In this document: piece after piece, positions 17,389 through 20,313 of the stretch
How positions within the stretch are numbered: position 1 is the first letter of the stretch
Layout: each line of letters begins with the position of its first letter
Source of the DNA: Planctomycetia bacterium
Lineage (GTDB): Bacteria > Planctomycetota > Planctomycetia > Gemmatales > Gemmataceae
Length of the DNA stretch: 33,716 bases
Assembly: GCA_005799265.1 (NCBI GenBank)
Contig: SYHD01000230.1
Location: 1 to 33,716 of the forward strand
Direction of reading: 5' to 3'
Made by a program: the position numbers and the translations under genes
The notes under the pieces: model-generated
What the model was told of the DNA's origin: nothing
Databases searched by the model: none
What the model saw: the letters and a program-made list of their open reading frames with translations, nothing else

Positions 17389-17448
17389 TCAGAGCCTGAA
17401 GCGTTAGCGAAGGAATTCCGCATCCTTCGCTAACGCTTCAGGCTCTGA
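17389..17448. repeat. family B palindrome, copy 1 (left flank of transposase)
   Basis: Perfect 26-bp arms at 17389-17414 and 17423-17448 surround an 8-nt centre. The arm starts TCAGAGCCTGAAGCG and ends AGCGAAGGA, with T at the variable central position (GCGTTAGCG). The transposase start lies 11 nt beyond it, and its GAGGAAA ribosome-binding site is partly formed by the palindrome edge. Confidence 0.95.
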
Positions 17449-17458
17449 GGAAAATGCC

Positions 17459-17983
17459 ATGGCTTCATCACCACTTGCATACTTCATCACGTTCTCCACG
17501 TACGGCGCCTGGCTGCACGGACGCGACGTCGGATCCATCGACAAGGAGCACAATCAGTTCAGTACGCCATTTCTCGAATCGGATTCAAAGCGGGAGGAAA
17601 TCGAACGAACCAACATGCGCGAATCCGCGTATGTCCTAAACGCGGAGCGACGAAAAATCGTGCTCGTCACCGTCCGCGAAGTCTGCAGCCACCGCCACTG
17701 GCGATTGTGGGCATGCCACGTTCGCAGTACGCACGTCCATGTCGTCGTAAGCGCCGATGAAAAACCGGAAAAGATCATGAGCGACCTGAAAGCGTATGCG
17801 AGCCGAAGATTACGCGAACAATTGAACGAACGCCCCGACGCCAAACGTTGGACGCAGCACGGCAGTACCCGTTATCTCTGGAAAGAGCCCGAGGTCGCGG
17901 CGAGCATCGAATATGTGCTGCGCGGTCAAGGCGACCTCATGGAATGTTACGATGGAACAGAAACTTCAGAGCCTGAAGCGTAA
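17459..17983 (+). CDS. Y1/HUH transposase, REP-associated (RAYT-like)
   Basis: The 174-residue single-strand-DNA transposase belongs to the Y1_Tnp superfamily. The N-terminus YFITFSTYGAWLHGRD is typical of the family. The HUH metal-binding motif is H92-V-H94 (RSTHVHVVVS), and the nucleophilic tyrosine is Y113 in SDLKAYASRRL. A C-terminal segment (WTQHGSTRYLW, then EYVLRGQGD) is shared by RAYT-like members. All catalytic residues are present, so the enzyme could be active. It is flanked by family B palindromes. The last codons (SEPEA and the TAA stop) are read from the left arm of copy 2. The enzyme is expected to nick and join at the foot of such hairpins; partner and target site are inferred from the family. 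Confidence 0.92.
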   Translation: MASSPLAYFITFSTYGAWLHGRDVGSIDKEHNQFSTPFLESDSKREEIERTNMRESAYVLNAERRKIVLVTVREVCSHRHWRLWACHVRSTHVHVVVSADEKPEKIMSDLKAYASRRLREQLNERPDAKRWTQHGSTRYLWKEPEVAASIEYVLRGQGDLMECYDGTETSEPEA

Positions 17984-18024
17984 GCGAAGGAAACTCTATC
18001 CTTCGCTTACGCTTCAGGCTCTGA
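17966..18024. repeat. family B palindrome, copy 2 (right flank of transposase)
   Basis: Perfect 26-bp arms at 17966-17991 and 17999-18024 surround a 7-nt centre. It differs from copy 1 by a paired change (GCGTAAGCG against GCGTTAGCG) on both arms. The left arm encodes the C-terminus and stop of the transposase. The next gene starts 20 nt after the right arm. Confidence 0.95.
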
Positions 18025-18044
18025 CGATATCGCGAGGCATCCAA

Positions 18045-20243
18045 ATGTCCCTCATTCGCATTGTGCTGCAAGCCCTTGTTCTTCTTCCTTCGATGGCGAC
18101 GGCACAAGACGACGCCGACGCGTTCCCCGGTTATTCCCATCAGGGCGAAGCCTTCAACGAAGGTCCGCGCCAGCGCGCCTATCTCATGGGCAAGACGGGC
18201 AACATTCGCTTCCCCATCACCACGTCCTCAAAGGACGCCCGGTTGTTTTTCGAGCAAGGCGTCGGCCAACTGCACGGCTTCTGGTACTTCGAGGCCGAGC
18301 GCTCCTTCCGCCAGGTCGCATTGCTCGACCCCGATTGCGCGATGGCTTACTGGGGCATGGCGATGGCCAACCACGAAAACGAAAAACGGGCCATCGGTTT
18401 CGCCAAGAAAGCCCGCGGCCTATTGCGCGGCGTCTCTGCCCGCGAACTCCTTTACATCGAAAGCATGACCGAGCAATTGCTTACCGTCGGCGACAAACGC
18501 AAACGCCAGCAGACGGCCCTAGACATATTCAAAAAGATCGCGACCGAATATCCCGACGACATCGAAGCCAAGGCGTTTTTCGTTGTGCGGTCCTGGCAAT
18601 GGAAGATCGGCGCCCAAGGAGCGGCGCTTGACAAGACGATCGACGAGATCTTCAAGGCCAACCCGTTGCACCCCGCCCATCACTTCCGCATCCACATCTG
18701 GGACGGCGCCAATCCGGCGAACGCACTACAATCGGCGGCCCAGTGCGGGGAAGCAGCGCCGCATATCGCCCATATGTGGCACATGCCGGGGCACACCTAT
18801 GACAAGCTCAAACGCTACGCCGAGGCCACTTGGCAGCAGGAAGCGTCGAGCAGGGCCGATCATTTTCACATGATGCACGATCGCGTCCTGCCCGATCAAA
18901 TCCACAACTATGCCCACAATCAGGAATGGCTCATCCGCAACCTCAGCCACATCGGCCGCGTCAATGACGCCGTCGCGCTCGCCAAGAATCTCATTGAGCT
19001 GCCGCGCCATCCGAAGTTCAACATGCCAAACAAGGGCAACAAGTCGGCCGGCTATGGCCGCACGCGCCTGTTCGAGTTGCTCGACCGTTATGAGCTGTGG
19101 GACGAAACACTCAAGCTCGCCGACACGATGTATCTCGATTCAACCGAATCGCCTGGCGAGCAAGTCAAACGGCTGCGGCTCATCGGCCTGGCGCACGCGG
19201 GCAAGGAAGATAAAGAAAAGCTCGCCAAGACGATAGACTTGCTCGACAAGCAAGTCGCCAAGGGGAAGCCGCCCGAGACGAAGGACAAGAAGCCCGATCT
19301 CAAGGGCAAGTTCGGCAAGGGGCCGCCCGCCCTTGACGCCATCGCCGCGCGCGAGAATGCACTCAAAGAACTGCGCATGCTCGAAAAGCTTCTCGCCGGC
19401 GATCAGAAAGAAGCCCTCGAAATGCTCAAGTCGCTCAAGGGCCTGAGCCAGACCCGGCAAGCGCGCTACTATCTGCAAGCCGGCGACAAGGCGAAGGCCG
19501 AACAACTCGCCAAGCAGGCGTCCGACGCGAATAAGACGCAGGCCGCGCCGCTGGCCGTCTACGTCGAGACGCTGCACGCCGCCGGCAAGACGAAGGAATG
19601 CGCCGAGGCGTTCGAACGACTGCGCAAGATGTCGGGCACGATCGATTCCCTCGAGACGCCGGTGTTCAAGCGATTGGGCGAAATTGCAAAGGAAATGAAG
19701 CTGCCAGCCGACTGGCGTGTCAAGTTGAAGTATCCCGCCGACTTCGGCAAACGTCCGTCGCTGGAATCGATCGGTCCCCTGGTTTGGCAGCCGACGTCCA
19801 GTCCCGCCTGGACTCTCCCCGACGCCTCTGGCAACTTGATTGCCTCGAAGAAGTACGACGGTAAACCGACGCTGGTCGTCTTCTATCTCGGCTACGGCTG
19901 TGCCCATTGCATGGAGCAAGTGGTCAAGTTCTCCGCGGAGGCGAAGCGCTTCGAGGAGGCGGGCATCGCGATCGTCGCCATCAGCACCGACTCGAAGGAC
20001 GCGCTGACGCGTTCGCTGAACGGCGACAAGAAGATCGCCTTCCCGGTCGTATCGGATCCGTTGTGCGAAAGCTTCAAGGCGTATCGTGCCTACGACGATT
20101 TCGAGCAAACGCCGCTGCACGGGACGTTCCTCATTGACGCCGCTGGCCTGGTGCGCTGGCACGACATTGGCTACGAACCGTTCATGGACACAGCGTTTGT
20201 GCTGACGGAGGCGAAGCGTTTGTTGTCGTTGCCGATGCGTTAA
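18045..20243 (+). CDS. secreted TPR-rich protein with C-terminal peroxiredoxin-like domain
   Basis: The ATG at 18045 gives a signal peptide (MSLIRIVLQALVLLPSMATA). An all-helical TPR-like region spans about residues 50-560 and includes ARLFFEQGVGQLHGFWYFEA and CAMAYWGMAMAN. A low-complexity Lys/Pro insert lies near 405-425. The C-terminal about 145 residues form an AhpC/TSA-type redoxin with WTLPDASGNL, then FYLGYGCAHCMEQ carrying Cys619-x-x-Cys622, and GIAIVAISTDS. It is probably an extracytoplasmic thiol-disulfide or peroxide-active protein coupled to a protein-binding scaffold; the substrate is unknown. An open frame extends upstream through the palindrome but is not coding-like. A family B hairpin follows 12 nt after its stop. 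Confidence 0.87.
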   Translation: MSLIRIVLQALVLLPSMATAQDDADAFPGYSHQGEAFNEGPRQRAYLMGKTGNIRFPITTSSKDARLFFEQGVGQLHGFWYFEAERSFRQVALLDPDCAMAYWGMAMANHENEKRAIGFAKKARGLLRGVSARELLYIESMTEQLLTVGDKRKRQQTALDIFKKIATEYPDDIEAKAFFVVRSWQWKIGAQGAALDKTIDEIFKANPLHPAHHFRIHIWDGANPANALQSAAQCGEAAPHIAHMWHMPGHTYDKLKRYAEATWQQEASSRADHFHMMHDRVLPDQIHNYAHNQEWLIRNLSHIGRVNDAVALAKNLIELPRHPKFNMPNKGNKSAGYGRTRLFELLDRYELWDETLKLADTMYLDSTESPGEQVKRLRLIGLAHAGKEDKEKLAKTIDLLDKQVAKGKPPETKDKKPDLKGKFGKGPPALDAIAARENALKELRMLEKLLAGDQKEALEMLKSLKGLSQTRQARYYLQAGDKAKAEQLAKQASDANKTQAAPLAVYVETLHAAGKTKECAEAFERLRKMSGTIDSLETPVFKRLGEIAKEMKLPADWRVKLKYPADFGKRPSLESIGPLVWQPTSSPAWTLPDASGNLIASKKYDGKPTLVVFYLGYGCAHCMEQVVKFSAEAKRFEEAGIAIVAISTDSKDALTRSLNGDKKIAFPVVSDPLCESFKAYRAYDDFEQTPLHGTFLIDAAGLVRWHDIGYEPFMDTAFVLTEAKRLLSLPMR

Positions 20244-20255
20244 GGAATTTACTTG

Positions 20256-20313
20256 TCAGAGCGTGAAGCGTAAGCGAAGGACGCGCGTTCTTCGCTTACG
20301 CTTCAGGCCCTGA
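20256..20313. repeat. family B palindrome, copy 3 (solitary)
   Basis: 26-nt arms at 20256-20281 and 20288-20313 surround a 6-nt centre. It shares the GCGTAAGCG variant of copy 2 but has three arm mismatches, so it is older or relaxed. It lies 2.2 kb from the transposase, between the TPR-redoxin and cyanophycinase-like genes, with no transposase of its own. Confidence 0.92.

Follow-up and report, generated by a model that had tools for sequence, protein, structure and literature searches.

Among the described systems, the closest to the one reported here is the TnpAY1 class 3, of which 11 out of 24 members came from Planctomycetes (Quentin et al. 2018, PMC6006769). The available part of this survey gives as marks of the class the motifs Y----Q, W[TA] and NHVH, a length of about 178 amino acids and, in many copies, flanking secondary structures, which are termed atypical and for which only a CnGA foot is given in that description. 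Here, we analysed a stretch of 33,716 nucleotides from a Planctomycetia bacterium of the family Gemmataceae (contig SYHD01000230.1; hereafter the window), in which a Y1/HUH transposase gene, tnpA, is bracketed by two palindromes. We are confident that this locus represents a class-3 TnpAY1 REPtron, i.e. a Y1/HUH gene accompanied by a dispersed family of short palindromes of its own, comparable to repetitive extragenic palindromes (REPs). What we observed directly is the layout, a mostly intergenic palindrome family, matched private repeats at related genes, a repeat unit found across the class, co-variation between the palindrome arms and a gene position shared between species.

The system resembles the TnpAREP or REP-associated tyrosine transposases (RAYTs) of Escherichia coli and relatives (4er8; PMC8266576, in its available part) in its fold, in its unit of foot plus hairpin and in a foot that ends in AG, as in GTAG. 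However, it differs from them in having Y----Q instead of Y---NP, in lacking GTAG and in its score of 23.4 bits with the NCBIfam model for REP-associated transposases (NF047646), for which the cut-off is 80. With the hairpin-forming REP doublets, REPINs, as described in the accessible text of Bertels and Rainey (2011, PMC3116915), it shares the inverted conserved ends, the variable spacer, the single hairpin and the intergenic dispersal, whereas foot and loop differ from those of the proteobacterial GTAG-type REPs and the 26-bp arms pair nearly uninterrupted. The initial annotation of the window had read the layout as a RAYT with its REPs and as a distinct planctomycete type. Copy number, matched flanks and placement bear out a REPtron, but a canonical RAYT with GT[AG]G REPs was rejected on the basis of the model score and the foot, which is TCAGAG; the distinct type was right in kind, but class 3 had been described before (PMC6006769, in the part at hand). 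The earlier reading is therefore right in substance and the kind is known, while the repeat-unit rule and the interpretation of the palindrome as a doublet are new; in a search of the open-licence PMC literature, the rule was not found beyond the class-3 description.

The transposase and its position among related enzymes

The product of tnpA matches the Pfam family Y1_Tnp (PF01797) with an E value of 4.7e-8. Judged by its motifs and length, TnpA is of the TnpAY1 class-3 kind, which was previously recorded from Planctomycetes, among others: it comprises 174 aa, contains W131-T132 and Y152-V-L-R-G-Q157, and both flanking palindromes, whose family occupies at least 76 places in the genome, carry CAGA as a form of the CnGA foot. 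Length, Y----Q, W[TA], planctomycete origin, multicopy flanking structures and, in the window's family, the foot are thus shared with the class as far as the consulted part of PMC6006769 describes it; in contrast, the HUH motif is THVH (residues 91-94), while the table of that survey gives NHVH. In our alignment, THVH is found in the window protein and in the relatives L035 and L038, and NHVH in the other 6 of the 9 rows. L035, which stems from a metagenome-assembled genome (MAG) of the Planctomycetota, is the closest named relative (77-78% protein identity), in support of the assignment of the window to this phylum. To the class-3 description, in the same part of the source, we add the AG foot, the 8-nt stem, the GNNA loop and the doublet form.

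Y152 is the most likely catalytic tyrosine, because its column holds tyrosine in 8/8 rows that reach this position (alignment A2), whereas the column of Y113 is unconserved, and because Y152 is located in the last helix (residues 143-155) of the predicted structure, which has a mean pLDDT (predicted local distance difference test) of 74.8. The initial annotation had named H92, H94 and Y113 as catalytic residues; the two histidines stand, but Y113 was rejected, since its column contains Y, T, R or W. When this model was used for a fold search, ISDra2 transposases were the best matches (E 1.4e-4), with TnpAREP 4er8 at rank 4 (E 2.2e-4) and IS608 at E 7.1e-4; a sequence search against solved structures gave weak matches (best E 0.036).

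The ranking of ISDra2, the glutamine past the catalytic tyrosine in a class-1-like Y----Q motif and the compact layout, with one palindrome just upstream of the gene and one at its end, would also suit an IS200/IS605-type insertion sequence (as ISDra2 and IS608), in which case the solo palindromes would be deletion products resembling miniature inverted-repeat transposable elements (MITEs). We regard this as improbable, given that TnpA stays below the cut-off of the NCBIfam IS200 model (35.8 of 55 bits), that the repeats disperse without the gene, and that the genome lacks a second near-identical copy, the other three tnpA-related matches being only 36, 38 and 28% identical in an assembly that is 87% complete. 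Based on the bit score and these low identities, an ordinary IS200/IS605 element was rejected. In addition, the same junction holds tnpA in the genome of the window (G000) and in that of a sister species (G004). The own-genome relatives on contigs C120 and C190 are accompanied by palindromes of different sequence.

The features of the locus are compiled in Table 1. Both hairpins with 26-bp arms that the initial annotation had placed around the gene were confirmed with perfect arms, except that the gene does not lie strictly between them: palindrome 2 overlaps the 3' end of tnpA, and its arm codes for the final five residues and the stop codon (SEPEA*), an ending of a type that is common to the G004 ortholog, L035. 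The third copy past the next gene is likewise present, but its arms are imperfect (90% complementarity across 30 nt).

Table 1 Features of the tnpA locus (positions refer to the window).
Feature	Position	Strand	Remarks
Palindrome 1 (REPIN-like doublet)	17389..17448	.	precedes tnpA; perfect 26-bp arms around an 8-nt loop
One arm, putative single REP-like unit	17389..17414	+	pattern taken from relatives, letters read in the window
Foot of the arm	17389-17394		TCAGAG
Segment 5' of the loop	17395-17402		CCTGAAGC
Loop of the arm	17403-17406		GTTA
Segment 3' of the loop	17407-17414		GCGAAGGA
tnpA, Y1/HUH transposase	17459..17983	+	174 aa; Pfam PF01797 match, alignment, structure model and fold search
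Palindrome 2 (REPIN-like doublet)	17966..18024	.	26-bp perfect arms, 7-nt loop
Palindrome 3	20256..20313	.	arms imperfect; flanked by the TPR/redoxin and S51-like genes

A dispersed palindrome family and private repeats at class-3 genes

When the initial 15 nt of the arm were searched in the window's 6.47-Mb draft genome, allowing one mismatch, 39 + 33 occurrences were found, compared to 1 + 0 for a reversed control. A covariance model built from 20 copies gave 138 matches on both strands, which merge into 76 distinct places, so that the genome-wide count asked for in the initial annotation is at least 76; this is a lower bound, since 150 of 3463 candidates were scored, and some of the places represent a related family in which the outer letters differ. 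Palindrome 1 was the top match among the scored candidates. As DNA, it folds with -33.4 kcal/mol, compared to a mean of -7.7 (sd 1.9) for shuffled sequences. The placement was examined for 24 palindromes with at least 300 nt on either side, using gene calls from a purpose-made simple codon model: 19 were intergenic, one overlapped a gene end and four were located inside called open reading frames (ORFs), whereas of 400 random 60-mers from the same loci, 35, 38 and 327 fell into these respective categories.

For the class-3 relatives, we compared the DNA upstream of each gene with the DNA downstream of it and counted shared repeats with a score of at least 15. A matched flanking repeat was present at 29 of 34 loci, but only in 48 of 1122 mismatched pairings, the strongest of which were between similar genes, and the own flank was strictly the best at 28 of the 34 loci (34 of 41 loci were used, leaving out two duplicates, four with short flanks and one with a short match). 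A phylum-wide search, in which 27 of 246 genomes had a match at E ≤1e-20, provided further loci, and at 23 of 25 of these a matched repeat was found as well, compared to 22 of 600 mismatched pairings (25 of 29 loci, without four from genomes already sampled); here as in the tallies below, many loci are related or stem from one genome and are not independent. From these sequence comparisons we conclude that class-3 genes carry their own matched flanking repeats, which are not expected by chance.

These private repeats also bear on the idea that the palindromes serve the host at the 3' ends of genes, e.g. as terminators or mRNA stabilisers, with the transposase located between two of them by chance. 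Indeed, the copies are mostly found just past genes: where a gene was called on each side (21 copies), the neighbours were both on the + strand in 9 cases, convergent in 7, both on the - strand in 4 and divergent in 1. Many palindromes also exist without a close gene in other genomes. Against this stand the matched private repeats of both sets and the rarity of the repeat unit at ordinary RAYT genes (see below), and we therefore consider a pure host function quite unlikely; a host role at 3' ends could nevertheless exist beside mobility.

Several further repeats were noticed in the genome. A second family, ACCAACCCGAAGCGTNAGCGAGGG, is nested within a longer imperfect palindrome (TTAGGCGAGCGGCAG...) that is MITE-like (L133, L134 and L135 on contigs C58, C138 and C354). 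Matches to the covariance model on contigs C308 and C355 are further candidates for this family. The 129-nt end of an apparent insertion sequence occurs in seven copies (L195-L201 on contigs C295, C354, C349, C228, C226, C124 and C122); it begins 3 nt outside the edge of a TCAGAG palindrome in three of the seven and directly after AGAGCC, the start of a unit, in two more. This insertion sequence may target TCAGAG repeats, as some insertion sequences target REPs. Moreover, the starts of contigs C100 and C121 (L131, L132) have about 110 nt in common that lead into a palindrome without the outer foot; they probably represent another mobile element abutting the repeat. Contigs C150 and C372, which have model matches at the same positions as C100 and C121, are further candidates for this arrangement.

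A directional repeat unit and its inverted doublet

The comparison of the matched repeats suggests that the repeat unit corresponds to one arm, consisting of an AG foot, an approximately 8-nt stem in which GA mismatches are frequent, and a GNNA loop. Of the 29 matched repeats in the first set, 26 contained CGYNAG, compared to a mean of 5.5 and a maximum of 12 in shuffles and to 1, 4, 2 and 10 for four permuted motifs; in the next sample, the motif was present in only 13 of 23 (shuffled mean 4.3, maximum 10), and it was dropped as a universal core. Many of the repeats without it show GNNA closed by a different pair, and the motif was widened to a GNNA loop with any closing pair. Among the 4-nt loops of perfect hairpins (stem of at least 6), GNNA or its complement accounted for 22/34 and 22/26 near the genes, compared to 6/36 and 3/23 farther away, a tally to which 8 of 39 and 9 of 25 loci contributed, respectively.

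We then fixed the pattern as a stem, an optional GA, GAA or TGAA mismatch, 2 bp and GNNA. It was present at 15 of 20 newly fetched loci (mean of 0.5 and maximum of 2 in shuffles), which hold additional copies of the gene from genomes that had contributed loci before, and at 22/39 and 18/25 loci of the discovery sets. The fixed-pattern scan, like the hairpin tally, kept the loci with short flanks (39 of 41, duplicates removed). Its shuffles move letter pairs and preserve the dinucleotide content only approximately, whereas those for CGYNAG and CnGA move single letters. When the strongest unit per locus was considered, AG immediately preceded the 8-nt stem in 42 of the 55 unit-bearing loci. No matching mark was found on the 3' side of the stem, where CT occupies the mirror position at 4 of 55. 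Since the foot mark is present on the 5' side only, the unit is directional and REP-like, i.e. a foot followed by a hairpin.

The unit is also much rarer at the ordinary RAYT genes of the phylum than at class-3 genes. At 45 class-3 loci, the unit occurred at 31, its AG-foot form at 26 and a hairpin with a GT[AG]G foot at 7, whereas the respective numbers at 28 RAYT loci were 4, 1 and 13 (45 of 56 and 28 of 30 loci, the rest being clipped; flank positions were derived from the locus length). In an acidobacterial relative, L040 from a Terriglobia MAG, CAG-CCCTGCCC-GTAA-GGGCGGGG is located about 50 nt upstream of the gene; it fits the class-3 unit with one G-T pair and is missed by the strict pattern.

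The directional foot plus hairpin in the flanks likewise speaks against a TIRYT or TIRtron in the sense of Di Nocera (2013, PMC3733652), in which a Y1 gene is associated with long terminal inverted repeats that have no relation to REPs. The available part of that paper does report Y1 genes with long inverted repeats next to them, of which some are self-complementary and others belong to repeated families. However, 20 of 26 TIRYTs belong to subclass 2.1, with Y---NP and an extra C-terminal domain (PMC6006769, in the part at hand), whereas the window protein has Y----Q and ends soon after, which makes this assignment very improbable.

In the window, the arms of copies 1 and 2 read TCAGAG-CCTGAAGC-GTNA-GCGAAGGA, with an AG foot, GC beside the loop, GAA-type mismatches and a GTNA loop. 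Because each arm fits the class-wide unit and the two units are inverted, the palindrome is, by its sequence, an inverted doublet of two units, i.e. a REPIN: its spacer is variable, it forms a hairpin, and its copies are dispersed and mostly extragenic. The initial annotation had described a long, almost loop-free palindrome; the perfect 26-bp arms are there, but they are better taken as a REPIN of a short hairpin unit. At the downstream flank of L045 and the upstream flank of L038, some doublets are inside-out, with the foot letters in the centre instead of at the ends.

The two arms do not vary independently. In 75 of 89 palindromes from three species (the rest of those from genome G002 being left out), the free loop base was complementary to its counterpart in the opposite arm in 56 cases, compared to a shuffled mean of 22 and a maximum of 37. 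With four loop-base pair types, no fewer than three double changes are required, while the remaining complementarity may be due to shared descent. A neighbouring position of the pattern showed no excess of complementarity (70 vs 68), because it hardly varies. On the 20-copy alignment, the covariation score was 0.097, compared to 0.051 in shuffles. This co-variation from arm to arm suggests that the doublet passes through a hairpin form. Among 579 same-length pairs of spacers from the same 75 palindromes, none were identical, but 27 were at least 80% alike (shuffled mean 0.3) and there is a weak consensus, which indicates that the spacers share ancestry and were not freshly made.

Distribution, proposed mode of action and significance

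The repeat is lineage-specific. Among 59 genomes in all, the two genomes of the genus with a close gene contain 72 (G000) and 194 (G004) arm matches, whereas 50 of the 52 genomes outside the genus contain 0-6, the other two being G022 with 17 and G031 with 8. Palindrome turnover is visible between sister species, which can barely be aligned in their intergenic DNA: palindrome 3 is missing from the same junction in G004, where the gap measures 31 nt compared to a flank of 33 nt in the window. The junction that holds tnpA in G000 and G004 is occupied by an unrelated palindrome in G002 (L126, G002:C28, between the VPS10-like and TPR genes), and unrelated palindromes are also located between the TPR and S51-like genes, the junction of the window's palindrome 3, in G003 and G005 (L127, L128).

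A number of results weigh against a class-3 REPtron with the unit described here. Five of the seven genomes of the genus have no gene copy above 51% identity and still carry 19-276 arm matches (G001 45, G002 276, G003 19, G005 25, G006 100), which in part fits the refutation named in the initial annotation, an equal frequency of the palindrome in genomes without any related Y1 transposase; G003 holds a 51%-identical relative of tnpA, flanked by other palindromes. From the pattern of presence and absence, shared ancestry and an effect of the gene cannot be told apart. Repeats are frequent break points of draft assemblies, and such breaks or a gene loss after the spread may explain the repeats without a close gene. 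Gene loss after repeat spread has been described for REPtrons (Di Nocera 2013, PMC3733652, in its available part). Furthermore, the divergence of tnpA between G000 and G004 (nonsynonymous, dN, 0.149; synonymous, dS, 1.80; neighbouring gene 0.197 and 0.969) includes a saturated dS. The strict unit pattern is absent from 17/39, 7/25 and 5/20 loci, and a single arm folds no better than shuffles (-1.7 kcal/mol, z -0.02). Finally, a CnGA foot across the class was no better than shuffles in either set (23/29 with a mean of 23.5; 16/23 with a mean of 18.6); it was rejected as a class-wide mark and replaced by AG 5' of the stem.

For the mode of action of the REPtron, binding, cleavage and mobility are modelled on IS608 and TnpAREP. 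In our reading of the sequence, each 26-nt arm is a REP-like unit with an AG-ending foot, a stem interrupted by GAA-type mismatches and a GYNA loop, and two such units in inverted orientation make up the REPIN. On these models, TnpA would recognise the unit in single-stranded form, for instance on the lagging strand, Y152 would attack a C|T dinucleotide selected by the AG foot, followed by rejoining, and the doublet would be copied or moved in trans. The prediction of cutting at C|T is drawn from the AG foot by analogy with the Marinomonas system, in which the GTAG foot contributes to the choice of the cut site and was selected, at the last two positions, on a substrate with CT (PMC8266576, in its available part).

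More generally, we propose, with about even confidence in either direction, that the class-3 enzymes of the Planctomycetota read a fixed two-part address, consisting of an AG foot that chooses the C|T cut and an approximately 8-nt stem, often with GA mismatches, that is closed by a GNNA loop of the d(cGNNAg) type. The stem letters would drift into gene-specific private families, while foot, stem length and loop would stay fixed, so that every gene would retain mobile palindromes of its own; some lineages, including that of the window, would copy an inverted doublet, the arms of which would be kept complementary via a hairpin intermediate after the single-unit hairpin had weakened. Going by the title of a 2002 paper by Nakano et al., cited in PMC5090098, d(cGNNAg) is reportedly a stable DNA tetraloop.

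As far as the literature surveyed shows, experiments on REP-associated transposases concern proteobacterial GTAG-foot systems, and class 3 has so far been a loose end, with structures described by hand as atypical. The directional unit rule held when further loci were fetched, and ordinary RAYT genes rarely show the unit, which makes recognition and cut-site choice in class 3 testable with short oligonucleotides. For the window, the palindromes can now be named and the catalytic residue has been corrected, and the unit pattern is usable for annotating unexplained palindromes in planctomycete genomes.

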